Of a DNA stretch of 64,000 nucleotides, positions 19,182 to 37,941 are shown in pieces. The number at the start of each line of letters is the position of its first letter. Position 1 is the first letter of the stretch. The stretch covers positions 1-64,000 of the forward strand of contig NZ_JAMHFY010000003.1 in assembly GCF_023897015.1 (NCBI RefSeq). Direction: 5' to 3'. A program made the position numbers and the translations under genes. Origin of the DNA: Desulfosporosinus nitroreducens. Lineage in GTDB: Bacteria > Bacillota > Desulfitobacteriia > Desulfitobacteriales > Desulfitobacteriaceae. The notes under the pieces are model-generated. The model saw nothing but the letters and a program-made list of their open reading frames with translations, searched no databases and was not told the DNA's origin.

Positions 19182-19195
19182 AGTTTTCCCCTTCC

Positions 19196-19720: not shown

Positions 19721-19831
19721 ATTTGTTTCAGCTCCTACTTAACAGCAACAACCTAAATAGAGTAGAGATTGTCGCATGATTTATGGTTCCCATATTGATT
19801 GGATTATATAATGAGAATGAAAAAAAAATTA

Positions 19832-19869
19832 GGGTCAAATGTACTGGTGTTCACTAGTACATTTGACCC
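19832..19869 (-). terminator. Terminator after the NarL-type regulator
   Basis: Perfect 14-bp stem GGGTCAAATGTACT/AGTACATTTGACCC followed on the minus strand by a run of eight T. It separates the regulatory genes from the cytochrome genes, so the latter should have their own promoter. Confidence 0.85.
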
Positions 19870-19888
19870 CCTCATTTTGAAAAAGGAC

Positions 19889-20530
19889 TTAATGATTTAG
19901 TCCTTTTTCAAAGACATAATTGGCGAGTTGGACACGACTTGTCAAGTCCAACTTATTCAAGATACTGCTTACATAATTACGAACGGTGTATTCACTAAGG
20001 AAAAGATCTTCAGCAATTTTCTTGTTGCTTTTACCTTTAGATACCTCAATGAGTATCTCGCGTTCTTTATTGGTTAAGTTTATTAATTTATTAGCATCAG
20101 TTGAATGTGTCAGTGCGCGATTCATTAGCCTCAAGGTTTGCTTGGGATCAAAAAGGATTTCGCCCTCGACAACTTTGCGAATAGCATCTCGTAAAGCCTG
20201 ACGACCAATCTCTTTGAGGACATACCCGGAAGCGCCAGCTTTGATTGATTGTAAGACGGCCTCTTCATCCCTATAAGATGTGAGCATTAGAACGCGAACC
20301 GTGGGTTGACGTAAAAGAATTTGACGACAAGCCTCTACTCCACTGCCATCGGGTAAACGAACATCCATTAGAATGACATCTGGGCTCGTTTGCAGAGACT
20401 TCTCTACGGCCTCTGCTACACTACCTGACTCGGATATAACCTCGAACTCTGAATCCTCAAGTAAGGCCGTCAAACCCATTCTAACCACATCGTGGTCATC
20501 AACAATCATTACTTTATGCTTTTTCAGCAT
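19889..20530 (-). CDS. NarL/LuxR-family response regulator
   Basis: 213 residues. The receiver domain has VDDHDVVRMGL, phospho-Asp in VILMDVRLPDG and Lys in YVLKEIG. The C-terminal LuxR HTH reads LTNKEREILIEVSKGKSNKK, then DLFLSEYTVRNYVSSILNKL. ATG at 20530 behind GAGGAG is preferred over a GTG at 20539. It overlaps the kinase gene by 17 bases, so the two are co-translated. The NapC and haem lipoprotein genes immediately downstream are the obvious candidate targets. Confidence 0.92.
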   Translation of the reverse strand: MLKKHKVMIVDDHDVVRMGLTALLEDSEFEVISESGSVAEAVEKSLQTSPDVILMDVRLPDGSGVEACRQILLRQPTVRVLMLTSYRDEEAVLQSIKAGASGYVLKEIGRQALRDAIRKVVEGEILFDPKQTLRLMNRALTHSTDANKLINLTNKEREILIEVSKGKSNKKIAEDLFLSEYTVRNYVSSILNKLDLTSRVQLANYVFEKGLNH

Positions 20531-22234: not shown

Positions 22235-22253
22235 AAATTAGGTATAAGTGGTG

Positions 22254-22571
22254 ATGAAAGTGGAAAAGCAAATCTATCGAAAACTGTTTTTGGGGTTTAT
22301 TCAAATTCACATCTTGCATCATGCTCAAAAAGAGGCTATTTTTGGTTCTTGGATGTTAGAAGAACTTCAAGAGCATGGATATCATTTGAGCGCTGGGACT
22401 CTGTATCCTCTTCTTCACGCCATGGAATCTGCTGATTTGCTAGAAAAAGAAGATAAGAACATAGCGGGGAAAATTCGAAAGTACTACAAAAGTACAGAGA
22501 AAGGAAGCATGGTATTACAGGAAGCAAAAAAGAAAGCTTATGAACTTTTTAAAGAAATAAAAGACGAATAA
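22254..22571 (+). CDS. PadR-family transcriptional regulator
   Basis: 105 residues, the size of PadR subfamily 2. Winged-helix motifs: YGSWMLEEL-type helix (FGSWMLEELQEHGYHLSAGT), LYPLLHAMESADLLEKED, then RKYYKSTEKGSMVL. Two in-frame GTG codons precede the ATG; ATG at 22254 is taken. It is 23 bases ahead of fetA and probably in the same transcript, so it likely controls the FetAB exporter in response to a small ligand or metal. Confidence 0.88.
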   Translation: MKVEKQIYRKLFLGFIQIHILHHAQKEAIFGSWMLEELQEHGYHLSAGTLYPLLHAMESADLLEKEDKNIAGKIRKYYKSTEKGSMVLQEAKKKAYELFKEIKDE

Positions 22572-22594: not shown

Positions 22595-23272
22595 ATGTTT
22601 ACACTGCGAAGTGTTAAATATAAAGATATTTTAGATATAGACGAACTGGATATTCCTGAGCAGAGGATTACCTGCATCGTGGGGGAAAGCGGAAGCGGAA
22701 AAACTACGCTCTTAAGGCTATTAAACCATATAATCAGTCCTGATGAAGGAGAAATCTGGTTTCAGAACACACCTTTATCCCAGTGGAATCCAGTTGAATT
22801 AAGACGGAAAGTCATGATGCTTTCGCAGTCTCCGGCAATATTTGAAGGAACGGTAAGAGATAACTTACTGATTGGATTTAAATTTGGCGAAAAGCCTCCA
22901 GTAGATGAAAATCAACTGCAGGATACTTTGAAAATCGTTCGATTAAATAAAGATCTGTTACTTGACGCCAATTCCTTATCTGGCGGGGAGAAACAACGTT
23001 TAGCTATGGCAAGAATACTATTGCTGAAACCAGAAGTTTTTCTTCTGGATGAACCCTCTTCTGCTCTAGATGAAGAGACGACTCAATTTATAATGGAACA
23101 ATTGGTCCACCATGTCAATCAGTTAAAGAAAACTATGATTATGATCACCCACTCTAAAGCTGTGGTTGAAGCCTTTGCCGAGAAGGTTGTTGAAATCAAA
23201 AAAGGCAAAGTTCTTATAACAAAGGAGGTCGGGCCATGCAAGGGAGCATCGACTTGTCGATTTGGCAATTAA
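22595..23272 (+). CDS. fetA: FetA-like iron export ABC ATPase (YbbL)
   Basis: 225-residue ABC ATPase: Walker A GESGSGKTTLL (about 33-43), Q-loop, signature LSGGEKQRLAMAR, Walker B FLLDEPSSALD and H-loop ITHS. Its neighbour is a UPF0014/FetB permease, which identifies the pair as FetAB, the iron exporter that protects against iron and oxidative stress in E. coli. The last 37 bases overlap the permease start. If fetB is truly broken (see next entry), this ATPase has no partner. Confidence 0.85.
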   Translation: MFTLRSVKYKDILDIDELDIPEQRITCIVGESGSGKTTLLRLLNHIISPDEGEIWFQNTPLSQWNPVELRRKVMMLSQSPAIFEGTVRDNLLIGFKFGEKPPVDENQLQDTLKIVRLNKDLLLDANSLSGGEKQRLAMARILLLKPEVFLLDEPSSALDEETTQFIMEQLVHHVNQLKKTMIMITHSKAVVEAFAEKVVEIKKGKVLITKEVGPCKGASTCRFGN

Positions 23273-24013
23273 CTGCGGCCTATATTTTCATTCTTATACT
23301 CATTCTTATTGTTAGAATCAAAGGGATTCCGAGAGAGAAAGAAATCCTGATTTCTTCCCTGCGGATGACGATTCAATTGGTACTCGTCGGTTATATACTT
23401 GCTTATGTATTCGAACACAGCCATCCCTTTTATGCCCTAGTGATTGTCGCCATCATGCTCATCTTCGCCATCCATAACATCTTTAACCGGACAAAATCGC
23501 AGTTGTCACCTGAGATAAAAAAGATCGTTGCTCTTTCTATGACCTTAGGCATCCTTGCAAGTCTAATTTATTTCGTTCTTGTCGTGTTGCAGGTGTCCCT
23601 GGTATGAACCTAGATATGTCATTCCGATTGCAGGCATGATTATAGGCAATTCGATGACGGGGATCTCCCTGGGCGTTAAAACCCTTGTGGAAGGAATGAC
23701 GACAAATAAACAACTAGTGGAAGCTGCCCTGATTCTTGGCGCGACACCAAAAATGGCCTCTAAACAGATTGTAAACAATGCGTTTGACGCCGCTATGCTA
23801 CCAACGATTAATTCTATGGTCGGAATGGGTATTGTCTTTTTACCGGGCATGATGACCGGTCAAATTCTTGGCGGGGCTTCGCCTGTCGTAGCAATTGAGT
23901 ATCAAATCGCGGTAATGCTCGGTATTGTTGGCAGTGTTGCGTTAACTGTACTTCTATTTGTACAGTTTGGCTATAAAACATTTTTCAACTCCCGCAGTCA
24001 AATGAAAGTTTAA
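23236..24013 (+). pseudogene. fetB: FetB-like permease (YbbM, UPF0014), frameshifted
   Basis: The first frame (23236-23607) encodes the N-terminal 110 residues of a UPF0014 permease with four transmembrane helices. A second frame, open from about 23579 to 24013, continues seamlessly with PWYEPRYVIPIAGMIIGNSM and LVEAALILGATPKMA to a normal C-terminus. The frames differ by one base, and the break lies within roughly 23575-23605. No slippery heptamer is visible. It is either a genuine disruption or a single-base assembly error. Start ATG has AAAGGAGG. Confidence 0.85.
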
Positions 24014-24086
24014 GGAGAAGATACTTTACCAATTGTCTAATTCGCGGAAGATAATTACAAAAATGTATAGTCCATTATACAAAGTT

Positions 24087-24135
24087 AAAAAACGGGTAGG
24101 CAATTCATAAAACTATGATTACCTACCCGTTTTTT
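24087..24135. terminator. Bidirectional terminator
   Basis: 14-bp stem AAAAAACGGGTAGG/CCTACCCGTTTTTT between the convergent fetB and hexahaem cytochrome genes. Confidence 0.85.
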
Positions 24136-24162
24136 TAGTATCGCCATATACCAAAATTAAAG

Positions 24163-25233
24163 CTATTTTGCTAGGTCTGGTAAGAGTTTCTTGATTAATT
24201 CGATAACGGTCGGATTTTTAATTTCAATAGGTTTCGTTGCTGCGTCATCTTGAAGATCTTCATATTTTATTGCCCCAAAGCTGTGATCCTTAGTGAAGTG
24301 TTCATTGGGATCGGTTGGGTTCTTCCACATGAGTTTTTCAAGATCAAAGGTTTTTCCAGCGTGACATTTAACGCAGATATCAGTTGGTTTGTCAGCAACT
24401 AGGAGGGCTCCACTAGCATTGGCTTTATGGGCGCTATGACAAGTAAGACATTGATTTAATTGTGAACTCTGAGCGTGTTTGCTGGCAAAGAAGTTGCGGG
24501 TGCCATAGTGGTTGGTTGCTGTGAAGTTACCCTGAGCGTCTTTAGTCGGATCGCTCTTATGACAATCTAAGCATGAGTTTTTGGCGGTTTCGAGGCTCAT
24601 AGTTCCCTTCTTGTCAGTGGCGCTCGCATGGTTTCCGGCAGGACCATGACACGATTCGCAGGATATACCAACAGTAGGTGAAGCCTTTTCGATTCCTGGA
24701 GCATGGCATTTGCCACAAGTGAATTTTTCTGCGGTCCAGTCAGGCTTACCATCTTTATCGATATCATTTTGTTTGGGAGCCTCTACTGTCCATTTGTCGT
24801 CTGCTTTTTTAAGCGCACCGACACGATAAATTTTTTCTTTAAAACCTGCCGCAGCAGGAATCTCAGCAATAATATAATCGTCCATCATGACCCCGTAGAC
24901 CTTGGCTTGCGATAAATCGAGTGTTGTGGACGTTGGTTTTTCAGTGTTGGCCGCATCAAAAATAGTAACTGAAGTTAAAGGCTTGTCCAAAGGATAATCG
25001 GAAAGTGGCTTAAACGCAGAAAAATGTTTTGTATGAGTTACATTATTAAATGTATCCGTGTGGCAGGCTTGGCATGCTTCGTTACCGATATAAGCTATCT
25101 GGGCTGTTTCGGTTAGTTGAGGTCCTGTTGGCTGAGGAGTAGGGGTTTCCTGTACCTTGTTGCATCCCATGGCTAATGCTGTTAAGAATGTAAAAGAAAT
25201 AATCGAGACTAAGAAAGATTTTTTCCAGTTCAT
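24163..25233 (-). CDS. Hexahaem c-type cytochrome lipoprotein
   Basis: 356 residues. A signal peptide ends in a lipobox (LAMGC, Cys24), so the protein should be anchored to the outer face of the membrane. Six CXXCH sites follow: CQACH, CGKCH, CESCH, CLDCH, CLTCH, CVKCH. The layout resembles cytochrome c554/NrfA-adjacent multihaem carriers, with extra His residues available as second ligands. It is probably an electron carrier to an external acceptor; the acceptor is not evident. AAAGGAGG precedes the ATG. The gene is divergent from a Cache-HAMP-HTH regulator that may control it. Confidence 0.88.
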   Translation of the reverse strand: MNWKKSFLVSIISFTFLTALAMGCNKVQETPTPQPTGPQLTETAQIAYIGNEACQACHTDTFNNVTHTKHFSAFKPLSDYPLDKPLTSVTIFDAANTEKPTSTTLDLSQAKVYGVMMDDYIIAEIPAAAGFKEKIYRVGALKKADDKWTVEAPKQNDIDKDGKPDWTAEKFTCGKCHAPGIEKASPTVGISCESCHGPAGNHASATDKKGTMSLETAKNSCLDCHKSDPTKDAQGNFTATNHYGTRNFFASKHAQSSQLNQCLTCHSAHKANASGALLVADKPTDICVKCHAGKTFDLEKLMWKNPTDPNEHFTKDHSFGAIKYEDLQDDAATKPIEIKNPTVIELIKKLLPDLAK

Positions 25234-25455
25234 TGGGTCGTTCCTCCTTTAAAACTATTAAAATCTTGTTTTATTGTGTTGACCAAAATAGGTCTGGATA
25301 ACTTTCATGGCTTCTTGTAAAAGTTTAGATTAAGCCTTAAAAATTGTGTTCTTAGTTTGCTTATAAATTAATGGGAAAATGCTTAAATTTTAAAAATATA
25401 TAATTGAAATTTATGGAAATAGACTTTTTATTAAAGGATTTTGTAGAATGGGTAA

Positions 25456-25560
25456 GTGGAAGTCTATTTGGAAGAGGCCCTGCGTGTGCTTGGGGAGGCG
25501 ATTGCCCCATGTCATCAGGCTGCTTTAAAGGCAACCCAAGCAATGAATGCTGGTCGATAA
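25456..25560 (+). pseudogene. Unrecognised short coding remnant
   Basis: A 34-codon frame (YLEEALRVLGEAIAPCHQAA, then LKATQAMNAGR) looks protein-like, with strong amphipathic helix character, but has no ribosome binding site and a stop just upstream. It may be the tail of a lost gene or a small peptide. The rest of the 25234-25779 gap shows only AT-rich DNA. Confidence 0.35.
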
Positions 25561-25779
25561 AGTGAGCGGGTCTTTGTAATTTTTATATAAGACCAGTCTC
25601 TTTTCTAACCCTAATTCCATTAATTTATTAGGTTCTTTCACTAAGAAGCTCAAAGATTCATTTTTTTCAATCAAAATACTTTAAATTAAAGGTTTTTCAA
25701 TTTTATACGCGAATTAACTTTGGATAATTACAATTTGATCTAACAAGCAAGGTATTGAAGTCGGAAAGAGGTGATTTGC

Positions 25780-26889
25780 GTGCGTTCGCTCAAACAGCAG
25801 ATCCTAATATTGTTGTTGGGTTCGCTCGTTTTGCTGGCGGCTAGCTTCCTCGTGGTCCTGGGTTTATACATGAAAGATCGGGCCGTGGCCGCAGCTATTA
25901 TCAAAGTGAAAGCAGATTTAGCAACATGTGAGGAAATTATTGATAAGACATATCCCGGCGCGTGGTCAGAACAAGAAGGAAATCTATATAAAGGGCAGAC
26001 CAAAATTAGTCTTAATAATGACTTAGTTGATTATTTGTCCAGTCTAACGGGGGATACTGTGACTGTATTTCTTGGAGACACCCGGGTCGCTACCACGATA
26101 CGCGGTTCAAACGGCGAACGGGCGATTGGTACCAAGGTTTCTGATAATATAATTCAGACAGTACTGAAAGATGGTCAGACTTATGTAGGAGAAGCCAATG
26201 TAGTTGGACAGTGGCATCAAACAGGTTATGTTCCATTGCGTGCCGAAAACGGTAAGATTATTGGGATTTTTTACGTCGGAATTTCCCATGCCTATGAACA
26301 GGAAATAATTACTCGATCTTTGATCACTATGGCCGAACTGGGATTAGTCCTAACGGTCTTGATAGCTCTTCTGACATGGTTTTTCCTTAAGAAAGTTATC
26401 ATTTCTCCTTTGCACAATATCATGTTAGAAACACGGGACGTAGCAACCGGACACCTCACCGAAAAGGTGAAAATTTCTGGAGCAAAGGAAATCGGAGAGC
26501 TGGAGGATGCTTTTAACCAAATGGTAGAGCAGATCCAATCGCTAACAGAGGAAATTAATCGAGTGACCAGCAACAATCCATTGCATGGAACTGAAGTCAA
26601 ACAGACGTTTACACCTGGGTATATGCCAATGCCAAGCTTAAATCTCGTAGGGAATATTGGAGAAGCAGAGTTGCCTAAGGGTTTACATCAAGCTACTCTT
26701 GGTCAAATAGTTCAATTTTTACAGGTAAATCGCCGTCCTCTCTCTGCAGAAGAAGTTGCGGAAGGGGTGAAATTAACTAGGGTCACTGTACGCCGCTACC
26801 TTGAATTTTTAGAACATAGCGGGGCATTAAAATCAGAACAGAAATATGGCACAGTTGGTCGTCCCGTCAAGCTATTTATACCGCTGTAA
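25780..26889 (+). CDS. Membrane-anchored one-component regulator (Cache-HAMP-HTH)
   Basis: 369 residues. Transmembrane helix 1 (about 5-28), an extracytoplasmic single Cache-type sensor (about 35-175; TYVGEANVVGQWHQTGYVPL, IGIFYVGISHAYE), helix 2 (about 182-203), HAMP (about 204-256), a linker, then a C-terminal winged HTH (SAEEVAEGVKLTRVTVRRYL, followed by YGTVGRPVKLF). The HTH is of the type ending CitB/DcuR response regulators. There is no kinase, receiver or methylation domain. The start is GTG at 25780 behind AGAGG; GTG at 25771 is part of that site. It is divergent from the hexahaem cytochrome gene, its likely target. Confidence 0.85.
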   Translation: MRSLKQQILILLLGSLVLLAASFLVVLGLYMKDRAVAAAIIKVKADLATCEEIIDKTYPGAWSEQEGNLYKGQTKISLNNDLVDYLSSLTGDTVTVFLGDTRVATTIRGSNGERAIGTKVSDNIIQTVLKDGQTYVGEANVVGQWHQTGYVPLRAENGKIIGIFYVGISHAYEQEIITRSLITMAELGLVLTVLIALLTWFFLKKVIISPLHNIMLETRDVATGHLTEKVKISGAKEIGELEDAFNQMVEQIQSLTEEINRVTSNNPLHGTEVKQTFTPGYMPMPSLNLVGNIGEAELPKGLHQATLGQIVQFLQVNRRPLSAEEVAEGVKLTRVTVRRYLEFLEHSGALKSEQKYGTVGRPVKLFIPL

Positions 26890-26948
26890 AACAAACGTCT
26901 CCTAATGGGGCCGTTTTTTATCGCAATACTCTTTTGCTTTTTTCAAAG

Positions 26949-26978
26949 ACTCTACTTTTTATAAGGTAGAGTTTTTTT
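26949..26978 (+). terminator. Intrinsic terminator
   Basis: Stem ACTCTAC/GTAGAGT extended by weaker pairs, followed by seven T. It ends the one-component regulator transcript. Confidence 0.8.
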
Positions 26979-26979
26979 G

Positions 26980-27182
26980 TACTAGTCTTAAAGTATAACT
27001 TTACGTTTCATACTTACTGGAAGGTCCCTTTCGCCATCACGACATCTTGCCATCTATGGCGGTGTAACTAACCTCGAACATCCATGTTCGAGTCATGGCT
27101 ACACTTGGCCATCCATGGCCAGCGCATAAGTGTAACTATGGCGACCGCTGTCTGACGGCTTAGCGCTAGCCCGGTTTTCTGT
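26980..27182 (+). repeat. Dispersed intergenic repeat, copy A
   Basis: About 200 bases made of short palindromic modules shared with copies at 32243-32353 and, inverted, 40872-41120. Shared blocks include CATACTTACTGGAAGGTCCC (27009-27028), CTCGAACATCCATGTTCGAG (27073-27092), CACTTGGCCATCCATGGCC (27102-27120), GCATAAGTGTAACTATGGCG (27124-27143) and GGCTTAGCGCTAGCC. It starts right at the T-tract of a terminator. Confidence 0.75.
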
Positions 27183-27715
27183 TATTACTTCAGTGGTTTG
27201 GTTTATTCGCAGTGAAGTTTCCTTTCGGAATAAAATGACTTTTAACGAAATTAGTCCTTTGGCAGAAGAGTAGAATTAAGGGCCGGAAGGCCTTAATCTG
27301 AGTAGTCCCGGTGTTCAGATTTAGAAGAACCTTCACTGTTTTCCTAATTAACTAAATCTTCTTTATAAACAAAACCTTTATTTAATGTCCATAAACACGA
27401 CAGGCAGTGAGAATAAGGCTAAACTAATCATATAAACATAATCTTGATTCAGGCGTGGGGTTTTCCTTACCAGGAATACACCGGATACTTCTAGCTGTGT
27501 TAAAGCGGTGACTAAACCATCCATGGCTGAGGGAAATGTTATCCAGGAGCTTAGTGCCATTTATTTCACCGCTCATTCTAGCGGAGGTATCAGTGGCAGT
27601 TAGCTATCGGATAAACCATTGCCAACCATCAAATCATTGGCTGAATATGCAGAATAAAGAATTAAAGAGAGGTGAAAAACGGAAGCAACAAATGTTTTAA
27701 TAAAGGAGGATTTTC
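27183..27715. other. Intergenic region before the hydrogenase operon
   Basis: No convincing gene. A hairpin ATTAAGG..CCTTAAT with a GGAA loop lies near 27275-27298. A 60-codon minus-strand frame at 27378-27560 has no family resemblance that can be supported. The hydrogenase promoter should lie here; no clear -35/-10 or sigma-54 motif can be assigned. Confidence 0.4.
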
Positions 27716-28204
27716 ATGTGTGATTCTGCTTCGCCCAATCAGTTTGCCCAAAAGCTTGATAGCTATATTGACAGTCTGACCCACAAGAAGGAAAACCTAA
27801 TTGGGGTCTTGCATTATGCTCAAGAAATATATGGATATCTACCCGATAATGTACAGTGGCATATCGCTCAGAGACTGGATATACCTTCCGCTACAGTCTA
27901 CGGTGTAGTAAGCTTTTACTCATTTTTCACTATGATACCCAGGGGAGAACACGTTGTTAATGTTTGTACTGGTACCGCCTGTTTCGTTCGAGGGGCTGAA
28001 AAATTAAAAGAAGAACTTGAAAATCAGCTCAAAATTAAAGCAGGTGAAACTACTCCGGATAATCTCTTTACCTTAGAAACACTGCGTTGCGTCGGAGCCT
28101 GCGGCCTCGCCCCCGTCATGATTGTCGATGGCGAAGTGCATGGACGCATGCACGAAGCACAAGACATTAATGAGGTTTTGGCAAAGTACCGCCCGGAGAG
28201 TTAA
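27716..28204 (+). CDS. NuoE-like [2Fe-2S] subunit of bifurcating hydrogenase
   Basis: 162 residues of the NuoE/HndA/HydC type. After a helical N-terminus (KKENLIGVLHYAQEIYGYLP, VQWHIAQRLDIP) comes a thioredoxin-like domain with four cysteines binding a [2Fe-2S] cluster (CTGTACFVRGA and CVGACGLAPVM). It is the first gene of the structural operon, with AAAGGAGG at the start. It feeds electrons between the flavin subunit and the cluster chain of the cytoplasmic [FeFe] hydrogenase complex. Confidence 0.93.
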   Translation: MCDSASPNQFAQKLDSYIDSLTHKKENLIGVLHYAQEIYGYLPDNVQWHIAQRLDIPSATVYGVVSFYSFFTMIPRGEHVVNVCTGTACFVRGAEKLKEELENQLKIKAGETTPDNLFTLETLRCVGACGLAPVMIVDGEVHGRMHEAQDINEVLAKYRPES

Positions 28205-28360
28205 GCGCACTTTCGATTTATTAGTTGGAAAGACCAAAGTATTTGAAAATGTGTCAGAAGGAACGTTTTGTCCACACAAGTGTATACAATATCCAGAATT
28301 TTGAATTACGAACATGGAGTCTCTACCAAAGAAGCGTCACCGAAGGAAGGGAAATGCCAT

Positions 28361-30247
28361 ATGAAACTCAAAAATACCGATGCCTTGAATGAATTACAAG
28401 CTCAAAGTCTCAAACTCCTTGAATCACGGCAAGTTATCGACTCTGTTGGCACTAAAAACGCCCAAGGATTAGTAAGGCACGTTATGGTCTGTGGAGGACC
28501 CGGTTGCCACTCCTCAGGCAGTCCTAGAATTGCCGAACGTCTCGAAGAGGAACTAAACAAACGGGGATTGACTGAACAGATAAAAGTCTTCCAACCAGGT
28601 TGTTTTGGTTTTTGTGAAAAGGGTCCCATGATTGAAATCTTCCCTGATAATGTAACTTATTGTGAAGTTTCGGAAGAAGACGTTACAACCATCGTCGAAG
28701 AACACTTCATACAAGGTAACCTGGTGGAACACCTTGTTTTTATGGATCCGAATACCAAAGAACGTTTTGCTACGAACATTCCTTTTTACGATGGACAACT
28801 TCGCATTGCCCTGCGTAACGTGGGTTATATCGCACCAGAAAACATTCTTGAGTATATTGCTGCAGACGGCTATCAAGCCTTAGCAAAAGTTCTTTTCACA
28901 ATGAAGCCTTTTGAAGTTATTGATGTACTTAAACAAAGCGGACTGCGGGGACGTGGCGGCGCAGGTTTTCCAACGGGTACTAAATGGGAATTCACGCGTA
29001 AGAGCGAAGCTGATCAACGATATATCATTTGCAATGCCGACGAAGGGGATCCGGGTGCTTTTATGGACCGCTCTGTCTTGGAAGGGGATCCTCATAGCGT
29101 TTTGGAGGCTATGCTTATCGCGGGCTCCGCGATTGGAGCTTCCGAAGGATTCATATATGTCCGGGCAGAATACCCTGCTGCGATTCATCGTTTAAAAATT
29201 GCCATTGCACAAGCGCGAGAATACGGCTTACTTGGGAAGGGAATTTTGGGCAGCGATTTTTGCTTTGACATTGAACTAAAACTCGGAGCTGGAGCCTTTG
29301 TCTGTGGTGAAGAAACGGCATTGATCCATTCCATCGAAGGGGCCCGAGGGGAACCTTCTGTCAAACCTCCGTTCCCGGCCCAGAAGGGTTTGTGGGGTAA
29401 ACCAACCTGTGTTAACAATGTGGAAACCTTAGCCAATATTCCCCCAATTATTTTAAAGGGAGCCGAGTGGTTTTCAGCAATAGGCACAGAAAAAAGCAAA
29501 GGTACGAAAGTATTTGCGTTAGCGGGCAAAGTGAATAATGTAGGACTTGTGGAAGTCCCCATGGGGACCACACTCCGTCAAATTATTTTTGACATCGGCG
29601 GAGGCATTAAGCAACGTAAAACGTTTAAAGCCGCCCAAACGGGAGGCCCTTCCGGAGGGTGTATTCCGACCAAGTATTTGGATTCGCCCATTGATTATGA
29701 ATCTTTAACCGCTATCGGCTCTATGATGGGCTCTGGAGGGCTCATCGTTTTAGATGAAGATGATTGCATGGTCAATATCGCTAAGTTCTTCCAGGAATTT
29801 ACGATGGATGAATCCTGTGGTCGCTGTACCGCCTGCAGGGTGGGGACCAAACGCCTTTATGAAATATTGACCAAAATCACGGAAGGCAAAGCGTCATTAG
29901 AAGATTTAGATAATTTGGAGAGACTGTGTCATATTATTAAAGACACCGCACTTTGCGGATTAGGGCAAAGCGCACCCAACCCTATTCTTTCAACCTTAAA
30001 GTATTTCCGAGAAGAATATATTGCCCATGTTGTTGACAAGACCTGTCCAGCGGGCGTTTGTAAGCACTTATTGAAATATGAAATCACAGATAAGTGCGTA
30101 GGGTGTACCCTTTGCGTCAAGAAATGTCCTATGCATTGCATTACTGGGACAGTTAAGAAGCGCCATATTATCGACCAAGAACGTTGCCTAAAATGTGGGG
30201 CATGCATGGATCAATGCCGCGTCGTCGGCGCTATTATTTGCCATTAA
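28361..30247 (+). CDS. NuoF-like flavin/NADH subunit of bifurcating hydrogenase (HydB/HndC)
   Basis: 628 residues. N-terminal thioredoxin-like [2Fe-2S] domain (VCGGPGCHSSGS, PGCFGFC), then the NuoF core with the NADH/FMN sites (GLRGRGGAGFPTGTKWEF, ADEGDPGAFMDRSVLEGDPH, FVCGEETALIHSIEG), SLBB, a [4Fe-4S] site (ESCGRCTACRVG) and a C-terminal 2x[4Fe-4S] ferredoxin domain (CVGCTLCVKKCP, CLKCGACMDQC). Such subunits hold the flavin for electron bifurcation between NAD(P)H and ferredoxin. The longer frame from 28268 is discounted; GGAAGGGA lies before the ATG at 28361. Confidence 0.94.
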   Translation: MKLKNTDALNELQAQSLKLLESRQVIDSVGTKNAQGLVRHVMVCGGPGCHSSGSPRIAERLEEELNKRGLTEQIKVFQPGCFGFCEKGPMIEIFPDNVTYCEVSEEDVTTIVEEHFIQGNLVEHLVFMDPNTKERFATNIPFYDGQLRIALRNVGYIAPENILEYIAADGYQALAKVLFTMKPFEVIDVLKQSGLRGRGGAGFPTGTKWEFTRKSEADQRYIICNADEGDPGAFMDRSVLEGDPHSVLEAMLIAGSAIGASEGFIYVRAEYPAAIHRLKIAIAQAREYGLLGKGILGSDFCFDIELKLGAGAFVCGEETALIHSIEGARGEPSVKPPFPAQKGLWGKPTCVNNVETLANIPPIILKGAEWFSAIGTEKSKGTKVFALAGKVNNVGLVEVPMGTTLRQIIFDIGGGIKQRKTFKAAQTGGPSGGCIPTKYLDSPIDYESLTAIGSMMGSGGLIVLDEDDCMVNIAKFFQEFTMDESCGRCTACRVGTKRLYEILTKITEGKASLEDLDNLERLCHIIKDTALCGLGQSAPNPILSTLKYFREEYIAHVVDKTCPAGVCKHLLKYEITDKCVGCTLCVKKCPMHCITGTVKKRHIIDQERCLKCGACMDQCRVVGAIICH

Positions 30248-30271: not shown

Positions 30272-32014
30272 ATGGATATACAGCTAACCATTAACGACAT
30301 ATCGCTAAAAGTACCGGAAGGAATGTCTATCTTAGATGCTGCACGAACCATAAACATAGATATTCCAACCTTATGTTACTTGAAACTAAACGAAATGCAT
30401 TACAATAACAACATTGCTTCCTGTCGAGTGTGTGTGGTTGAAATCGAAGGTCGACGTAATTTGGCTTCCTCCTGTTCAACCCCAGTATCAAGCGGCATGG
30501 TTGTTAGAACTGATTCGCTGCGTGCTATCCAGGCTAGACGTGCCATGGTTGAACTGCTCCTTTCTGACCACCCTAAATCATGCCTAACCTGTGCAAAGAA
30601 CCAAGACTGTGATCTCCAATCCTTAGCCTCGGAATTAGGAGTACGCCATATCTCCTATGAAGGGGAAGAATCTGAGTTTGAAATTGATAAGTCCAGTTCT
30701 TCTATTGTTCGAGATCCTAACAAATGTATTCGTTGCCGCCGTTGCGAAACAATGTGCAACGAGGTGCAGACGGTGGGCGTTTACTCTGCGGTGGGACGCG
30801 GTTTTGAAACGGTTGTTAAAACAGCCTTTGATTTACCTCTTAGCCAAACCGCCTGTACGTTCTGCGGACAATGTATCGCGGTATGTCCAACTGGCGCATT
30901 AACAGAGTTAGATCAGGTCGACAAAGTATGGAAAGCGCTAAACGATCCCGATCAATTTGTTGTAGTACAAACAGCTCCCGCCGTACGTGTCGCACTTGGA
31001 GAGGGATTCGGTTTAGAACCTGGGACGATTGTGACAGGCAAAATGGTTGCTGCTCTTCGCAGGCTTGGTTTTGACCGCGTCTTTGATACAGATTTTGCTG
31101 CTGACTTGACGATTATGGAGGAGGCAACAGAGCTTGTTCACCGTATACAACATGGTGGACGTCTGCCCCTGCTCACAAGTTGTTGTCCTGCCTGGGTCAA
31201 ATTCTTTGAACATCAATTCCCAGATCTCTTGGACATTCCTTCAACTTGCAAATCTCCCCATGAAATGTTAGGGGTCCTGATTAAAAGCTATTATGCGAGA
31301 ACCTTAGGGATTGACCCTAAATCCATAACCGTTGTATCCGTCATGCCTTGCGTTGCTAAAAAATACGAAGCGGCCCGTCCTGAACTCTCACAAGGGGCAG
31401 AAACTGCAGATGTGGACATTGTCATCACAACACGTGAACTTATACGCATGATTCGGGAAGCCAGCATTCATTTTGATCACCTTAAAGAGCAAGAGTTTGA
31501 TCATCCTTTAGGGGAATCAACCGGTGCTTCCGTGATTTTCGGAGCAACAGGCGGAGTACTTGAAGCTGCCCTGAGAACAGCTTATGAGGTACTTACTGGT
31601 GAAACTCTGGAGAAAGTGGAGTTTGAGGTTCTCCGAGGAATGGATGGACTTAAGGAAGCGGTTATCCCCATCTCTGGAAGGGATTATCGAGCCGCGGTTA
31701 TTCACGGTTTAGGTAATGCTCGTACTGTCCTTGAGAAAATACGTGCAGGGGAAAGCAATTATGACGTCATTGAAATCATGGCTTGCCCTGGAGGATGTAT
31801 CGGGGGAGGCGGACAACCTTATCATCATGGAAATCTAGAAATTCTTTCGGAAAGAGCTCAAGGTTTGTACCGTGAAGACCGCGCTAAGCCCCTGCGCAAA
31901 TCTCACGAGAATCCGGCCATCATAGGTCTGTATAAGGATTACTTGGGTGAACCATACGGAGAAAGAGCGCATAAATTGCTGCATACCAGCTATGTGGCAC
32001 GTAAGAAGATTTAG
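30272..32014 (+). CDS. [FeFe] hydrogenase catalytic subunit (HydA/HndD type)
   Basis: 580 residues. N-terminal [2Fe-2S] ferredoxin-like domain (CRVCVVEIEG), His-Cys [4Fe-4S] motif (HPKSCLTCAKNQDC), two [4Fe-4S] sites (CIRCRRCETMC, CTFCGQCIAVCP), then the H-cluster domain with TSCCPAWVKF, MPCVAKKYE, FGATGGVLEAALR and MACPGGCIGGGGQP. All H-cluster cysteines are present. The C-terminal small-subunit-like segment follows. With the two preceding genes it forms a cytoplasmic trimer; a separate HndB-like subunit is absent. It consumes or evolves H2 coupled to NAD(P)H and ferredoxin. Confidence 0.95.
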   Translation: MDIQLTINDISLKVPEGMSILDAARTINIDIPTLCYLKLNEMHYNNNIASCRVCVVEIEGRRNLASSCSTPVSSGMVVRTDSLRAIQARRAMVELLLSDHPKSCLTCAKNQDCDLQSLASELGVRHISYEGEESEFEIDKSSSSIVRDPNKCIRCRRCETMCNEVQTVGVYSAVGRGFETVVKTAFDLPLSQTACTFCGQCIAVCPTGALTELDQVDKVWKALNDPDQFVVVQTAPAVRVALGEGFGLEPGTIVTGKMVAALRRLGFDRVFDTDFAADLTIMEEATELVHRIQHGGRLPLLTSCCPAWVKFFEHQFPDLLDIPSTCKSPHEMLGVLIKSYYARTLGIDPKSITVVSVMPCVAKKYEAARPELSQGAETADVDIVITTRELIRMIREASIHFDHLKEQEFDHPLGESTGASVIFGATGGVLEAALRTAYEVLTGETLEKVEFEVLRGMDGLKEAVIPISGRDYRAAVIHGLGNARTVLEKIRAGESNYDVIEIMACPGGCIGGGGQPYHHGNLEILSERAQGLYREDRAKPLRKSHENPAIIGLYKDYLGEPYGERAHKLLHTSYVARKKI

Positions 32015-32372: not shown

Positions 32373-32627
32373 ATGGATAAGAGAATAGGGGTTATTGGCA
32401 TAGTTATTGAAGAATTTGAAAGTGCCAATAAAGTTAATGATACTTTGCACGATTTAGCGAGCATTATTATCGGAAGAATGGGAATCCCTCGACCAGAAAA
32501 GGGCATATCTATTATCTCCTTGATCGTGGAGGGAACTTCTGACGAAATTAGTGCAATGACGGGGAAATTAGGAAAAATTCAAGGGGTTAATGTTAAATCT
32601 GCTTTAACGAAGAAATTGGAGGAATAA
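32373..32627 (+). CDS. TM1266-family [FeFe]-hydrogenase system regulator
   Basis: 84-residue ACT/NikR-C-like protein (RIGVIGIVIEEFESANKVND, IIIGRMGIPRPEKGISIISL, VKSALTKKL). The TM1266 family is found almost only beside hyd maturation genes and is annotated as a putative regulator; no DNA-binding domain is present. GGAGGAATG lies at normal spacing. It is 5 bases before hydG, so it heads the maturation operon. Confidence 0.9.
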   Translation: MDKRIGVIGIVIEEFESANKVNDTLHDLASIIIGRMGIPRPEKGISIISLIVEGTSDEISAMTGKLGKIQGVNVKSALTKKLEE

Positions 32628-32632
32628 AATCT

Positions 32633-34051
32633 ATGTACAATTGTAAGTCGAAAAATGCAACGGAGTTTATTGATGATGGTGAAATTCTGGCCACTCTTTC
32701 CTATGCCCAGGAAAACAAAAGAAATCGTGAACTGATTGACAGCCTGATAGAACGTGCTAAAGACTGTAAGGGCTTAACCCATCGAGAGGCTGCTGTTCTA
32801 CTGGAATGTGATCTGGAAGATGAAAATGAAAAAATGTTCAAACTGGCAAAGGAGATCAAGCAAAAGCTTTATGGCAACCGTATTGTCATGTTTGCGCCAC
32901 TATATCTTTCAAACTACTGCGTAAACGGCTGCGTGTACTGTCCCTATCACAATAAAAATAAAACCATATCTCGTAAGAAGCTTTCGCAGGAGGATATTGT
33001 GCGAGAGGTTATCGCCTTGCAGGATATGGGACACAAGCGCTTGGCATTAGAAACAGGAGAAGACCCTGTGAACAATCCGATCGAATATGTTCTGGAAAGT
33101 ATGAAGACTATTTATAGCATTCAGCATAAAAACGGAGCTATCCGCCGCGTCAATGTTAATATTGCTGCAACAACCGTGGAAAATTATCGGAAGCTCAAGG
33201 AAGCGGAAATTGGAACTTACATACTTTTTCAGGAAACCTATCACAAAAAAAGCTATGAGGAGCTGCATCCCACAGGACCAAAACACGACTACGCCTATCA
33301 TACTGAAGCGATGGATCGTGCCATGGAGGGCGGTATTGACGATGTGGGGATCGGGGTTTTGTTCGGCTTAAATATGTACCGCTATGACTTCGTAGGTTTG
33401 CTCATGCATGCTGAGCATTTAGAGGCGGCAATGGGTGTGGGACCACATACCATCAGCGTTCCACGCATCCGCCCCGCCGATGATATTGACCCCAATAGTT
33501 TTTCGGATGCAATATCCGATGATATTTTTGCAAAAATTGTGGCTGTTATTCGTATTGCCGCCCCTTATACGGGGATGATTATTTCCACACGTGAATCTAA
33601 AACAACCCGCGAGCGTGTGTTAGAATTGGGCATATCTCAGATAAGCGGAGGCTCAAGCACCAGTGTTGGCGGATATGTTGAGCCGGAAGCACAGGATGAT
33701 AACTCCGCTCAATTCGAAGTAAACGATACCCGCACCTTGGATGAGATTATAAACTGGCTCTTGGGACTCGGCTTTATTCCAAGCTTCTGCACCGCCTGTT
33801 ATCGCGAAGGGCGTACAGGTGATCGTTTTATGAAACTTGTAAAGGCCGGGCAGATTGCAAACTGCTGTCAGCCGAATGCTTTGATGACACTTAAAGAATA
33901 TCTAGAGGATTATGCTTCACCGGATACCAAGAAAAAGGGTGAGGTGGTAATTAAAAACGAGATTCCCTTCATACCAAATGAAAAGGTTCGGGCAATTGCC
34001 ATAGAGCATTTGAACGAAATTAAGGAAGGAAAGCGAGATTTCCGTTTCTAG
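32633..34051 (+). CDS. hydG: HydG radical SAM tyrosine lyase
   Basis: 472 residues. HydG cleaves tyrosine to supply CO and CN ligands of the H-cluster. The radical-SAM motif CX3CX2C is in YLSNYCVNGCVYCPYH (about residues 95-110). The C-terminal cluster-binding motif CX2C..C is in SFCTACYREGRTGDRF and NCCQPNAL, which holds the auxiliary cluster with the labile iron. Length and ends are standard. It is translated from GGAGG 5 bases after the regulator gene. Confidence 0.95.
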   Translation: MYNCKSKNATEFIDDGEILATLSYAQENKRNRELIDSLIERAKDCKGLTHREAAVLLECDLEDENEKMFKLAKEIKQKLYGNRIVMFAPLYLSNYCVNGCVYCPYHNKNKTISRKKLSQEDIVREVIALQDMGHKRLALETGEDPVNNPIEYVLESMKTIYSIQHKNGAIRRVNVNIAATTVENYRKLKEAEIGTYILFQETYHKKSYEELHPTGPKHDYAYHTEAMDRAMEGGIDDVGIGVLFGLNMYRYDFVGLLMHAEHLEAAMGVGPHTISVPRIRPADDIDPNSFSDAISDDIFAKIVAVIRIAAPYTGMIISTRESKTTRERVLELGISQISGGSSTSVGGYVEPEAQDDNSAQFEVNDTRTLDEIINWLLGLGFIPSFCTACYREGRTGDRFMKLVKAGQIANCCQPNALMTLKEYLEDYASPDTKKKGEVVIKNEIPFIPNEKVRAIAIEHLNEIKEGKRDFRF

Positions 34052-34151
34052 CAACCTACTTTCTAATTATCCAATCGCAGGGAACAATTGGATATTACAT
34101 TGGAAAAGATTATAAGAATAAATGTGTGGGGGAAATTTCTGGAGGTATAAA

Positions 34152-35603
34152 GTGAACTGTAGAATGGAAAAGGACAGTATCGGAGAAGAGGAGATTCCGG
34201 AAAATAACTATTATGGAATTAACACAAAAAGAGCCCAAGAAAACTTCGCTTTAGGGTCCAAAAACGTCAATCTTAAGCTTATCTATGAAATGGCCTTGAT
34301 TAAAAAGGCGGCAGCCATGGTCAATAAAGAGTTAAAGCAATTGTCTGAGGATAAAGCAAATGCAATAATTCAAGCAAGTGAGGAAGTTATTAAAGGGAGA
34401 TTTGACCAGGAATTTATCGTAAGTGCTTTTCAAGGGGGAGCCGGGACATCCACAAATATGAATCTTAATGAGGTTATTGCCAACAGGGCAATTGAGATAT
34501 TAGGGGGAACAAAAGGCGACTACGATGTTGCACATCCTATAAATGATGTTAACATGTCACAATCAACCAATGATGTTTATCCGACAGCACTGAGAATCAC
34601 AGCTATTCACATGCTCAGAAAACTAAGCAATTCCCTGGCGAAGCTTCAAGAAGCTCTGCAGGGGAAGGAAAACGACTTTAGTGATGTGATTAAACTTGGC
34701 AGGACAGAGCTAATGGATGCGTTGCCCATGATGCTCGGCCAAGAATTTGGGGCATATGCTAAGGCAATAGAAAGAGACCGTTGGAGAGTTTACAAGGTAG
34801 AAGAACGATTGAGACAGATTAATCTGGGTGGCACTGCCATCGGTACGGGAGTCAATGCCTCTAATAAGTATATTTTTATGATTACGGATACCATTCAGGA
34901 GTTAACAGGATTAGGTCTAGCCAGGTCCGACTATCCCATGGATGTAACTCAAAATAATGATGTATTTGTAGAAGTTTCAGGGCTTTTAAAAGCTTGCAGC
35001 ACGAACCTTTTGAAAATATCTAACGATTTAAGATTATTATCTTCTGGCCCAAGGGGCGGGTTCGGTGAAATAGAACTCCCGCAGATGCAGGTTGGTTCGA
35101 CTCTTATGCCAGGAAAGGTCAATCCGGTCATACCTGAGATGATCGGTCAATTGGCTATGAGAGTTATGGCCAATGACTATGCTATTACGATGGCTGCCTC
35201 GTCAGGACAGCTCGAACTCAATGCCTTTATGCCCCTAATCGCGGAAAGTTTGCTGGAATCACTAGAGCTTCTAAATAATGGAATCATTATCTTTAGAGAA
35301 AAGTGTATTGAGGGAATCATCCCTAATAAAGATAAATGTCAAGCAACTCTTGAAAAGTCGGCAGTATTAGCTGCTGCTTTAGTTCATCATATTGGCTATG
35401 ATCAAGCTGCCCATATAGCCAGAAGAGCTCTACGAGAGGATAAGACAATCAGAGAGGTCTTGAAGGAAGACGATGTATTGTCGGATTGTAGGATTAATGA
35501 GATCTTAAATCCGTTTGAAGTAACCAAACCAGGAATACCAGGAAGTATTGGAATGCCCGAAGTATCGGAAATACTCAGGAGGGATTTACATGAGCTTAAA
35601 TGA
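34152..35603 (+). CDS. aspA: Aspartate ammonia-lyase
   Basis: 483 residues of the fumarase/aspartase superfamily, with GRTELMDALP, GGTAIGTGVNA and the signature GSTLMPGKVNPVIPEM. It converts aspartate to fumarate and ammonium. The frame opens at 34122, but GGAGG at 34141-34145 selects GTG at 34152. The gene is embedded between hydG and hydF (14-base overlap with hydF), an arrangement seen in several Firmicutes. It may supply ammonium or another small product for assembling the azadithiolate bridge; this role is inferred from context. Confidence 0.92.
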   Translation: MNCRMEKDSIGEEEIPENNYYGINTKRAQENFALGSKNVNLKLIYEMALIKKAAAMVNKELKQLSEDKANAIIQASEEVIKGRFDQEFIVSAFQGGAGTSTNMNLNEVIANRAIEILGGTKGDYDVAHPINDVNMSQSTNDVYPTALRITAIHMLRKLSNSLAKLQEALQGKENDFSDVIKLGRTELMDALPMMLGQEFGAYAKAIERDRWRVYKVEERLRQINLGGTAIGTGVNASNKYIFMITDTIQELTGLGLARSDYPMDVTQNNDVFVEVSGLLKACSTNLLKISNDLRLLSSGPRGGFGEIELPQMQVGSTLMPGKVNPVIPEMIGQLAMRVMANDYAITMAASSGQLELNAFMPLIAESLLESLELLNNGIIIFREKCIEGIIPNKDKCQATLEKSAVLAAALVHHIGYDQAAHIARRALREDKTIREVLKEDDVLSDCRINEILNPFEVTKPGIPGSIGMPEVSEILRRDLHELK

Positions 35604-36843
35604 AACGCCCAGAGGGGTTAGAGTACATTTAGCGTTATTTGGGAAGAGAAATGCAGGAAAATCCAGCGTGATTAATGCCATTACAGGGCAGGAAACAGCC
35701 ATAGTGTCGAAAGTAAAAGGTACAACGACTGACCCAGTGTTTAAATCGATGGAGATATTGCCCATAGGACCGTGTGTGATCATAGATACAGCTGGAATAG
35801 ACGATATCGGAGAATTAGGAGAGCTCAGGCTAAAGAAGACTCTAGAAGTACTCGATATTACTGATGTGGCACTGCTTATTGTAGATATCCAGGCGGGAAT
35901 CAGTGATAATGATCGGTTTATTATAGATACTTTTAAGAAAAAGAAGAAACCGCTGATCGTGGCTTTAAATAAATCGGATACGATTGAAAACGAAAATAAA
36001 AATGAAGCTCAAGAAAGAATCGCGAGTCTTCTTCAAGATGAACTAAGCACTCCGGTCGTTGCCGTCTCAGCTCTTAAGAAACTTGGAATAAAAGAATTAA
36101 AAAATGCTATAATCTCAGTTATTCCTGAGGATGAGGATAAGTTTAAAATTGTGGGGGATTTAATTAACCCAGGTGATTTTGTGGTGCTTGTTACTCCCAT
36201 TGATAAAGCAGCTCCTAAGGGAAGGCTAATTCTTCCTCAGCAACAGACGATTAGAGACATACTGGAAAGTGATGCTATGGCGATTGTAACTAAGGAATAT
36301 GAATTAAGAGAAACCTTAAATCATTTGGCAAAAAAACCAAAGCTGGTGATCACTGATTCCCAAGCCTTTTTAAAGGTTGCTGCCGATACCCCTAAGGATA
36401 TTTTAATGACATCCTTTTCAATCCTCTTTGCCAGACAAAAGGGAGATTTAACAGAATTTATCAAAGGTGTCAAGGCTATTGAAACGCTTAAGGATGGAGA
36501 CAAGGTTTTAATAGCAGAAGGGTGTACACATCATAGGCAATCAGACGATATCGGCAGTGTGAAGATACCCCGATGGATACGTCAGAGAACAGGTAGGCAG
36601 ATAGAGTTTGAATACTCTTCAGGAGCTACTTTTACGGAAGATGTCAAGAAATATGCCCTTATCGTCCATTGCGGAGCTTGTATGATGAATAGAACTGGAA
36701 TGCTCAGCAGAGTTGAACAGGCAAAAAGTCTCAATGTGCCCATAGTGAACTTCGGCATTCTCATCGCCTATGTTCAGGGACTACTTACAAGAGCGCTTGA
36801 ACCTTTCCCACTAGCAAAGATGACCTTAGAAGGAGAACTATGA
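35590..36843 (+). CDS. hydF: HydF scaffold GTPase
   Basis: 417 residues. The N-terminal Era-type GTPase domain has G1 GKRNAGKSS, G3 DTAG and G4 NKSD. The C-terminal domain holds the [4Fe-4S] ligands: CTHHRQ (CXH) and, about 46 residues on, CGACMMN (CX2C). HydF carries the [2Fe] subcluster precursor to apo-HydA. The ATG at 35590 with AGGAGGG overlaps aspA; the longer frame from 35548 is rejected. Confidence 0.95.
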   Translation: MSLNETPRGVRVHLALFGKRNAGKSSVINAITGQETAIVSKVKGTTTDPVFKSMEILPIGPCVIIDTAGIDDIGELGELRLKKTLEVLDITDVALLIVDIQAGISDNDRFIIDTFKKKKKPLIVALNKSDTIENENKNEAQERIASLLQDELSTPVVAVSALKKLGIKELKNAIISVIPEDEDKFKIVGDLINPGDFVVLVTPIDKAAPKGRLILPQQQTIRDILESDAMAIVTKEYELRETLNHLAKKPKLVITDSQAFLKVAADTPKDILMTSFSILFARQKGDLTEFIKGVKAIETLKDGDKVLIAEGCTHHRQSDDIGSVKIPRWIRQRTGRQIEFEYSSGATFTEDVKKYALIVHCGACMMNRTGMLSRVEQAKSLNVPIVNFGILIAYVQGLLTRALEPFPLAKMTLEGEL

Positions 36844-36879
36844 TATACAACAATGATCAACTGGGTGAGGGGCGATTTT

Positions 36880-37941
36880 GTGAGTAATATGCATTATTTA
36901 TTAGAGAGAGTCTATCAAACGAACGACCTCTCGAAAGAGGAAATCACGTACCTCTTAGAAAACCTAACTCAGGTGGATAAAGAGGTCCTCTATAATTATG
37001 CCCTTAAGACGAAACAGAAATATTATGGAAATAAAGTTTACTTAAGAGGACTAATCGAGTTTTCGAATATCTGTAAGCAGGATTGCTTTTACTGTGGAAT
37101 TCGGGCTTCCAATGTGAAGGTGAAACGCTATCGGTTAACCCCGGAAGAAATCCTAGCTTGCTGCGATCAGGCGTATGAATTAGGCTATCAGACATTTGTC
37201 TTGCAAAGTGGTGAAGACCTCTGGTATACGGATGAGATTCTCGTTAATTTGATTCAGAAAATCAAAAAACGTTATCCTGAGGTAGCCATTACGTTATCGA
37301 TCGGTGAACGAAGAGTTGAAACCTATCAAAACCTCTTTACCTGCGGTGCCGATCGCTTTTTAATGCGCCATGAAACTGCTTCGAAAGAACTGTATGAAAC
37401 ATTACATCCGACGATGCGCTTTGAGGAACGTCGGGCCTGTTTGAACGCATTGAAGGGGATTGGCTACCAAGTGGGAGCCGGGTTTATGGTGGGGCTTCCT
37501 GGACAAACGTTTGCTGATTTGGCAGAGGACTTGCGATATTTAATGGAACTCCGTCCAGACATGATCGGAATCGGACCGTTTATTCCTCACAGTGAGACGC
37601 CTTTAGCTAAAGAGAAGGGAGGAACAATAAAAGATACATTAGTGATGGTGGCCATGGCGCGGCTACTTGTTCCGGAAAGTCTTATTCCGGCCACGACGGC
37701 ACTTGGGACTCTGCATCCACAAGGCAGGGAGCTTGCCTTGAAAGCGGGCGCTAATGTGGTTATGCCGATTATTACGCCAACCTCAGTTAGAAAACAATAC
37801 GCTCTTTACGAAAATAAGATTTGTGGGGATGATCATCCGGAAGATTGCCGATATTGCATAGAGCGCAGAATTCAGTCTGCGGGCTTTGAAGTGGATCTGG
37901 GTAGAGGGGATAGTCGGCAGTTTGTAGCTTGCAATAGTTAG
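36880..37941 (+). CDS. hydE: HydE radical SAM maturase
   Basis: 353 residues. Radical-SAM motif CKQDCFYCG (CX3CX2C, about residues 55-63) in a BATS-domain barrel with YRLTPEEIL, LQSGED, MRHETAS and GAGFMVGLPGQT. HydE builds part of the diiron H-cluster precursor, acting after HydG. GTG at 36880 follows GAGGGG at good spacing; an in-frame ATG at 36853 has none. It is last in the maturation operon, before a strong terminator. Confidence 0.94.
   Translation: MSNMHYLLERVYQTNDLSKEEITYLLENLTQVDKEVLYNYALKTKQKYYGNKVYLRGLIEFSNICKQDCFYCGIRASNVKVKRYRLTPEEILACCDQAYELGYQTFVLQSGEDLWYTDEILVNLIQKIKKRYPEVAITLSIGERRVETYQNLFTCGADRFLMRHETASKELYETLHPTMRFEERRACLNALKGIGYQVGAGFMVGLPGQTFADLAEDLRYLMELRPDMIGIGPFIPHSETPLAKEKGGTIKDTLVMVAMARLLVPESLIPATTALGTLHPQGRELALKAGANVVMPIITPTSVRKQYALYENKICGDDHPEDCRYCIERRIQSAGFEVDLGRGDSRQFVACNS

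Follow-up and report, generated by a model that had tools for sequence, protein, structure and literature searches.

A regulator gene in a 64,000-nt stretch of the Desulfosporosinus nitroreducens genome (GCF_023897015.1, contig NZ_JAMHFY010000003.1; hereafter the window) appears to encode a membrane-tethered transcription activator that senses external formate and drives a formate/H2 regulon, a reading to which we assign a probability of about 70%. The protein carries a sensor and a DNA-binding output on one chain, its homologues precede conserved formate dehydrogenase, hydrogenase or formate channel operons, an operator element lies in the gap between regulator and operon, and operator and regulator co-occur across genomes. 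Formate as the ligand, activation rather than repression, and action from the membrane without proteolysis would be the most natural explanation of these observations.

Domain architecture and sensor of the regulator

The regulator consists of a transmembrane (TM) helix, an sCache_3_3 sensor domain, a second TM helix, a HAMP domain, a disordered linker and a winged helix-turn-helix (HTH) domain, in this order, according to both Pfam and AlphaFold2. Its open reading frame (ORF) scored 121.8 bits against PF17202 (sCache_3_3; cut-off 28.8), 44.5 bits against HAMP (cut-off 25) and 27.7 bits against HTH_11 (cut-off 25), and the DpiA-like HTH_64 model reached 21.8 bits, under its cut-off of 27. The NCBIfam DcuR model covers residues 299-368 (E 2.7e-10), and a response regulator encoded in the same genome has the same kind of output domain, matching PF20714 above cut-off with 42.1 bits. 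With only the HTH as query, no sequence in the PDB matched better than E 0.2. Kinase, receiver, methyl-accepting chemotaxis protein (MCP) and AAA+ sigma-54 interaction domains are all absent from the 20 Pfam families listed for the ORF. Sensor and DNA-binding output therefore reside in one protein without kinase or receiver, which makes it a one-component regulator. These results bear out the first-pass annotation, made from the letters of the window, which had described a membrane-bound one-component protein of Cache-HAMP-HTH order with a CitB/DcuR-type HTH and no kinase, receiver or methylation domain.

The AlphaFold2 model, built with 35 homologues (mean predicted local distance difference test score, pLDDT, 75.3; predicted template modelling score, pTM, 0.47), has two long helices, one N-terminal (residues 4-57) and one at 170-224, with a PAS-like Cache fold between them. 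These are followed by HAMP, modelled at low confidence, by disorder at 260-295 and by the winged HTH (304-368), whose predicted fold has three helices and a two-strand wing. The linker region varies considerably, the span between the conserved E250 and L298 measuring 34-93 aa across 63 homologues. The forward-strand ORF of the first-pass annotation (25771-26889) holds in its frame but not in its start: because GTG 25771 falls within a likely ribosome-binding site of good quality (AGAGGTG) and the homologues begin at MRSLK, translation probably starts at GTG 25780 and gives a product of 369 aa.

The nearest solved structures to the sensor are 8py0 and 8py1, whether sequences (E 9.2e-15 and 5.2e-9) or folds are compared (Z 18.4, root-mean-square deviation 2.3 over 147 residues; Z 17.2, 2.0 over 134). 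They show domains from chemoreceptors of Oscillibacter ruminantium and Asticcacaulis benevestitus, and both are titled 'in complex with formate'; the next entry, at Z 11.6, is citrate-bound CitA. Residues R102, T105 and T118 of the regulator align with the matching residues of both structures and have the spacing (+3, +16) of R142, T145 and T158 in the formate chemoreceptor PacF, changes of which affect formate binding according to PMC12501870. Of the 63 aligned homologues, 62 have all three residues of this triad, the window protein among them; the exception is locus L078. In PMC12415202, formate is assigned to an sCache_3_3 chemoreceptor domain that carries the reported formate-binding residues. 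Judged from these alignments, the sensor domain most likely binds external formate through R102, T105 and T118, in keeping with the extracytoplasmic ligand that had been suggested for this protein.

The survey of relatives fetched 65 neighbourhoods, of which 64 regulators scoring above 200 bits were kept, one of them shortened to 291 aa. All 60 relatives searched gave some match, and many genomes encode the full-length protein two to four times. When 84,980 species were scanned, the best 54 loci were mostly from Desulfosporosinus, with others from Acididesulfobacillus acetoxydans, Peptococcaceae CEB3, Carboxydocella thermautotrophica and Bacillota metagenome-assembled genomes. Among the matches listed for 82 genomes of the window's class, a span from sensor to HTH occurs in two families only; in the next family the matches end before the HTH, and their frames, at 574-619 aa, are as long as those of chemoreceptors. 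The window regulator shares 95% identity with its counterparts in D. lacus and Desulfosporosinus sp. SRJS8.

Partner operons, operator and predicted regulon

The neighbourhood of the regulator is strongly conserved. Sixty of the 64 regulators precede, in the same direction, one of three operons, which by their domains encode FdnGHI-FdhE (formate dehydrogenase, FDH; 24 loci), the NuoE/NuoF/[FeFe]-hydrogenase set hydCBA (HYD; 21 loci, the window included) or a FocA-family formate/nitrite channel (FOC; 15 loci). Three of the remaining four lie at contig ends and the last is a divergent copy at locus L091. The 54 named loci, whose genomes overlap with the 64-regulator set, are distributed similarly (FDH 22, HYD 14, FOC 12, other or cut 6). 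The association extends to the distant Carboxydocella, where a 51% identical regulator likewise precedes an FDH operon, and in one genome (G012, locus L044) two regulator copies alternate with focA and hydCBA in a single cluster. The FdnG reading frame contains one UGA that is read through, in the context RIUHAPTVA. The divergent copy (L091:8321-9472, the same as L163) is 40% identical and has no adjoining FDH, hydCBA or focA genes; its 73-aa neighbour, starting MCLAVPAKV, is presumably HypC-like. A YbjN-family gene (cluster c10; L062:9634-10089 and counterparts) is found in divergent orientation to most FDH-type regulators.

Between regulator and operon lie AT-rich direct repeats followed by ACGACA-N17-TAAACT or a similar sequence, a predicted promoter that is conserved across FDH, HYD and FOC loci. 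The predicted half-site is approximately YTTTCTTTATTTAC, repeated directly on the same face of the helix, with spacings that cluster at 9, 20 and 29-31 bp. In 46 non-redundant target regions, the half-site matrix found 106 sites, versus 23 on the opposite strand and a mean of 11.6 (standard deviation 3.5) in resampled or shuffled sequences. Spaced arrays occur in 19 of 23 FDH, 8 of 19 HYD and 7 of 15 FOC regions; as this position weight matrix (PWM) was trained on the same regions, its matches there are not independent, and the informative part is the shuffles together with the absence of arrays from all 271 other promoter regions. De novo motif search by expectation maximisation (EM) drifted to AT-rich solutions from several seeds, and its best motif was used only for arrays with spacing controls. 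A candidate that was set aside is self-regulation, the upstream regions of the regulator/MCP cluster having no spaced array (0/54).

The main evidence for the operator is therefore an aligned operator model and its leave-one-class-out tests rather than the EM motif. Alignment A1 includes 27 of 28 rows, L078 being left out because the pattern search had hit a wrong position there, and R1 is a sequence-only model of these 27 elements. In the window, R1 has a sole match at E <= 10, at 27346-27428 (65.2 bits). When classes were left out and distinct intervals counted at E < 0.1 over 92 loci (1.29 Mb), a model from 11 FDH and FOC sequences recovered all 21 HYD intervals, and leaving out the FOC class likewise gave back all 15 FOC intervals. 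Outside the intervals, loci L031-L095 contained just two matches at E < 0.1, both directly downstream of a regulator cut by the contig end. Outside the named Desulfosporosinus set, the element is also present at five (L133, L144, L145, L152 and L154) of six loci that are family-level or unplaced, and L130, from Desulfosporosinus, carries it.

A search of the window genome with R1, in which the best 150 of 3299 first-look candidates were scored so that weaker sites may be missed, returned four places at E < 1e-6, the next being at 0.36. Three of these (hydCBA, focA and fdn) are linked to a regulator; the fourth, C25:21823, is unlinked and lies upstream of genes for a twin-arginine translocation (Tat)-type [FeFe]-hydrogenase, an iron-sulfur protein and an NrfD-like subunit. 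Across 40 genomes, R1 gave 71 matches at E <= 0.01, of which 50 immediately follow a regulator and 21 lie in other places. Fifteen of the 21 unlinked matches, all at sites outside the training set, precede the Tat-hydrogenase operon. Two precede focA, of which L223 lies at a contig start and L221 has HydB/HydC-type formate dehydrogenase genes after it; one stands before HydB/HydC-type formate dehydrogenase genes alone, and two, among the weakest, look unrelated.

Operator and regulator co-occur. A match is present in all 24 genomes with a full-length regulator versus 1 of 16 without (p 4e-10, a comparison confounded by kinship), and within the genus in 22 of 22 versus 0 of 2 (p 0.0036). The two same-genus genomes without the regulator, G004 and G014, have kept HydA at 81-83% identity and have no operator match; no close Tat-hydrogenase was found in either. 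In G004 the hydCBA operon is intact, and the region upstream of hydC lacks the operator (best 3.2 bits with filters off).

The predicted transcript would start near 27433, leaving a leader of about 285 nt (27433-27715) before hydC; in some relatives the gap between regulator and hydC is just 244-300 bp. No Rfam family reached its gathering threshold at 24000-28000. Of the genes downstream of hydCBA (Table 1), we take the two radical-SAM maturases to be HydG and HydE from knowledge of these families.

Table 1. Positions of the regulator, its parts, the predicted control region and the adjoining genes in the window
Feature	Position	Strand	Details
Divergent hexahaem c-type lipoprotein gene	24163..25233	-	356 aa; six CXXCH; Pfam cytochrome families
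Membrane-bound one-component regulator	25780..26889	+	369 aa; first-pass ORF from GTG 25771
sCache_3_3 sensor domain	26002..26310	+	ORF residues 78-180; PF17202, E 2e-35
Putative formate triad	26083..26133	+	R102 (26083-26085), T105 (26092-26094), T118 (26131-26133); 369-aa numbering
HAMP domain	26386..26538	+	ORF residues 206-256; PF00672
Disordered linker	26557..26664	+	Residues 260-295 of 369; pLDDT < 50
Winged HTH, CitB/DcuR/DpiA type	26689..26883	+	C-terminal; residues 304-368 of 369
Operator array	27339..27396	+	PWM half-sites 27339-27352, 27357-27370, 27377-27390, and CATAAAC tail
Predicted promoter	27397..27425	+	-35-like ACGACA 27397-27402, 17-nt spacer, -10-like TAAACT 27420-27425
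HydC/NuoE-like subunit	27716..28204	+	First gene of predicted target operon; PF01257
HydB/NuoF-like subunit	28268..30247	+	Complex1_51K and others; probable start 28361 from 628-aa homologues
HydA, [FeFe]-hydrogenase catalytic subunit	30272..32014	+	Fe_hyd_lg_C (E 8.6e-98), Fe_hyd_SSU
Downstream genes	32373..37941	+	Pfam assignments, next five rows
TM1266-like regulator	32373-32627	+	
Radical-SAM/BATS maturase	32633-34051	+	
Lyase	34122-35603	+	
HydF	35548-36843	+	
Radical-SAM maturase	36853-37941	+	

Proposed mechanism, alternatives and neighbouring genes

In the mechanism that we propose, formate would be bound outside the cell by the sCache_3_3 domain through R102, T105 and T118, and the binding signal would be passed on via the second TM helix and the HAMP domain. 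The flexible linker of variable length would then offer a pair of DcuR-type winged HTHs, still held at the membrane, to the direct-repeat half-sites that immediately precede a poor -35 box; there the HTHs would assist RNA polymerase. The window regulator would in this way drive hydCBA, the [FeFe]-hydrogenase operon at 27716; paralogues would act through the same kind of operator at the selenocysteine-containing (Sec-) formate dehydrogenase operon and at the formate channel gene, and the unlinked Tat-[FeFe]-hydrogenase operon would respond as the fourth. A broader picture, which we give an even chance, is that of a phosphotransfer-free transmembrane switch by which external formate sets the transcription of formate and hydrogen enzymes, the HAMP output reaching DNA through a disordered tether. 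The paralogous receptors, each standing by its own operon, would share one operator code and therefore form one formate/H2 regulon.

Several points weigh against this proposal. Recovery of the FDH class in the leave-one-class-out test was weak (8 of 24 at E < 0.1), because half-site spacing differs in this class, and no operator was found at E <= 1 at L160 and L163, which are the most divergent of the loci tested. The regulator-operator co-occurrence is confounded by kinship. At L078 (8436-9611), the HYD-type regulator of genome G002 has P, T and G at the triad positions and an operator of its own at 57.4 bits. The sensor could bind another small carboxylate. Finally, the reading of ACGACA and TAAACT as -35 and -10 hexamers is an interpretation of sequence, and activation is deduced from the layout of the control region. 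As to L078 itself, the altered triad may mark a change of ligand or decay.

That the half-sites might instead serve a repressor, blocking the promoter until formate is bound, is suggested by the promoter-proximal half-site, which abuts the -35 box. However, the half-sites are found upstream of the -35 box and in helical register (about 9, 20 and 29-31 bp), the box itself is weak (ACGACA), and no half-site was noticed over or downstream of the -10 box. Half-sites upstream of a weak -35 box are the usual layout of an activator. Because of this arrangement we favour activation and regard repression as unlikely. The same regulon and operator might also answer to a different C1-C3 carboxylate, such as acetate, pyruvate or lactate, or to bicarbonate, since related Cache domains bind other carboxylates, among them the citrate-bound CitA and, according to PMC12415202, an sCache_2 domain that binds lactate or pyruvate. 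Such a ligand seems improbable when set against the near-universal conservation of the triad and its spacing (62/63), the 5.6 to 6.8 Z units by which the two formate-bound structures exceed the rest, and targets that are formate enzymes and a formate channel.

The first-pass annotation had left room for DNA binding either at the membrane or after proteolysis. The disordered segment that joins HAMP to the HTH, 34-93 aa long, might be cut upon ligand binding, releasing a soluble HTH fragment to act on DNA, but no conserved cleavage-like sequence was noticed in this segment, which varies in length and sequence and was not searched systematically. Moreover, CadC acts from the membrane and signals via an unstructured linker of about 50 aa, as stated in PMC5936718. 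Regulated proteolysis is therefore doubtful, and because the linker is long and variable, as in CadC, we favour action of the intact protein at the membrane.

Despite its position, the divergent hexahaem cytochrome gene is a very unlikely main target. The gene exists as the first-pass annotation described it, with six CXXCH motifs and, by eye, a lipobox-like LTALAMGC in its product. Direct control of this gene in response to an external ligand, which was the proposal made there, did not withstand the comparison of neighbourhoods that had been named as its refutation test: homologues are not associated with cytochrome genes, their partners being FDH, the formate channel and hydCBA. The hexahaem gene adjoins divergently only 8 of the 64 regulators, those of the window genome and seven relatives, and these form one supported clade (99/93) of the regulator tree. 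The cytochrome occurs in 20 of 22 same-genus genomes, adjoining the regulator in just seven, and G004 and G014 have it without any regulator. None of the eight cytochrome promoters carries a spaced operator array, and the best score of the operator model at 25200-25800 with filters off was 1.6 bits, no match of the family's kind. The arrangement nevertheless recurs in all eight genomes, and five of the eight promoters contain a single half-site-like box, TTTCCATAAATTTC, at 8.1 bits (threshold 8.5), and a sixth has a version of it that differs by one base (7.8 bits); regulator and cytochrome may thus be linked in some minor or other way. The intergenic region also has conserved blocks of its own in 8 of 8 loci (24163-25779 in the window and seven relatives), such as TAAGCAAACTAAG, which are candidates for a promoter or operator of the cytochrome.

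Two further groups of genes in the window are worth recording. Two overlapping ORFs in different frames at 23236-24013 (+) match residues 1-112 and 113-242 of the UPF0014 profile; since they represent its first and second halves, the gene seems to have been split by a change of frame. It is preceded by a PadR regulator (22248-22571) and an ABC ATPase (22595-23272). At 18060-21950 (-), genes for an EB_dh ethylbenzene-dehydrogenase-like haem protein, a NapC/NirT-type cytochrome, a response regulator that looks NarL-like and a HisKA_3 kinase stand in a row; the tabulated relatives lack this respiratory module at the corresponding position.

Comparison with known systems

Anaerobes pass electrons to one another mainly as formate and H2, and formate is a currency of interspecies electron exchange. 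If the proposal is correct, an external-formate receptor acting directly on DNA would let a sulfate reducer tune its hydrogenase and formate dehydrogenase to its partners, and a clean switch from HAMP to DNA would be useful for sensor engineering. With the operator, the targets and three candidate ligand residues named, simple experiments could address the ligand, the binding to DNA and the action from the membrane one by one. Cache regulators of the membrane-bound sort have already been counted: Table 1 of Upadhyay et al. 2016, based on UniProt 2012, lists 14 sCache_3_3 and 300 dCache_1 proteins with transcription-factor output, and section 7 of that paper mentions them without a target, operator or ligand (PMC4822843). 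In the open-licence PMC literature, we recognised no characterised Cache-HAMP-HTH formate regulator and no transcription factor for external formate. The formate/H2 regulon predicted here is well defined.

The regulator shares parts with several well-known families while differing from each of them. With the formate chemoreceptors (PacF, McpF and the proteins of 8py0 and 8py1, having sCache_3_3 or Cache_3-Cache_2 sensors) it has in common the sensor fold, the R-x2-T-x12-T triad, TM helices and HAMP; however, they signal through an MCP output to swimming, whereas the protein described here has a DNA-binding output next to enzyme genes. The winged HTH output is that of the CitB/DcuR/DpiA response regulators of carboxylate two-component systems, which possess a receiver and a partner kinase, whereas this regulator has neither and is fused to a transmembrane sensor. 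On the proposed reading, the regulator would work, like ToxR and CadC, as a membrane-held transcription factor with a flexible linker. In contrast to their N-terminal cytoplasmic winged HTH, single TM helix and C-terminal periplasmic sensor, the order here is reversed, with an unrelated N-terminal sensor, two TM helices, a HAMP domain and a C-terminal HTH. A functional parallel is FhlA of E. coli, by which formate dehydrogenase and hydrogenase genes are likewise placed under the control of formate, according to PMC11841067. FhlA responds to intracellular, cytoplasmic formate (PMC11841067) and is sigma-54 dependent, as a title in the reference list of that article has it, whereas the regulator of D. 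nitroreducens carries its sensor outside the cytoplasm and lacks an AAA+ domain.

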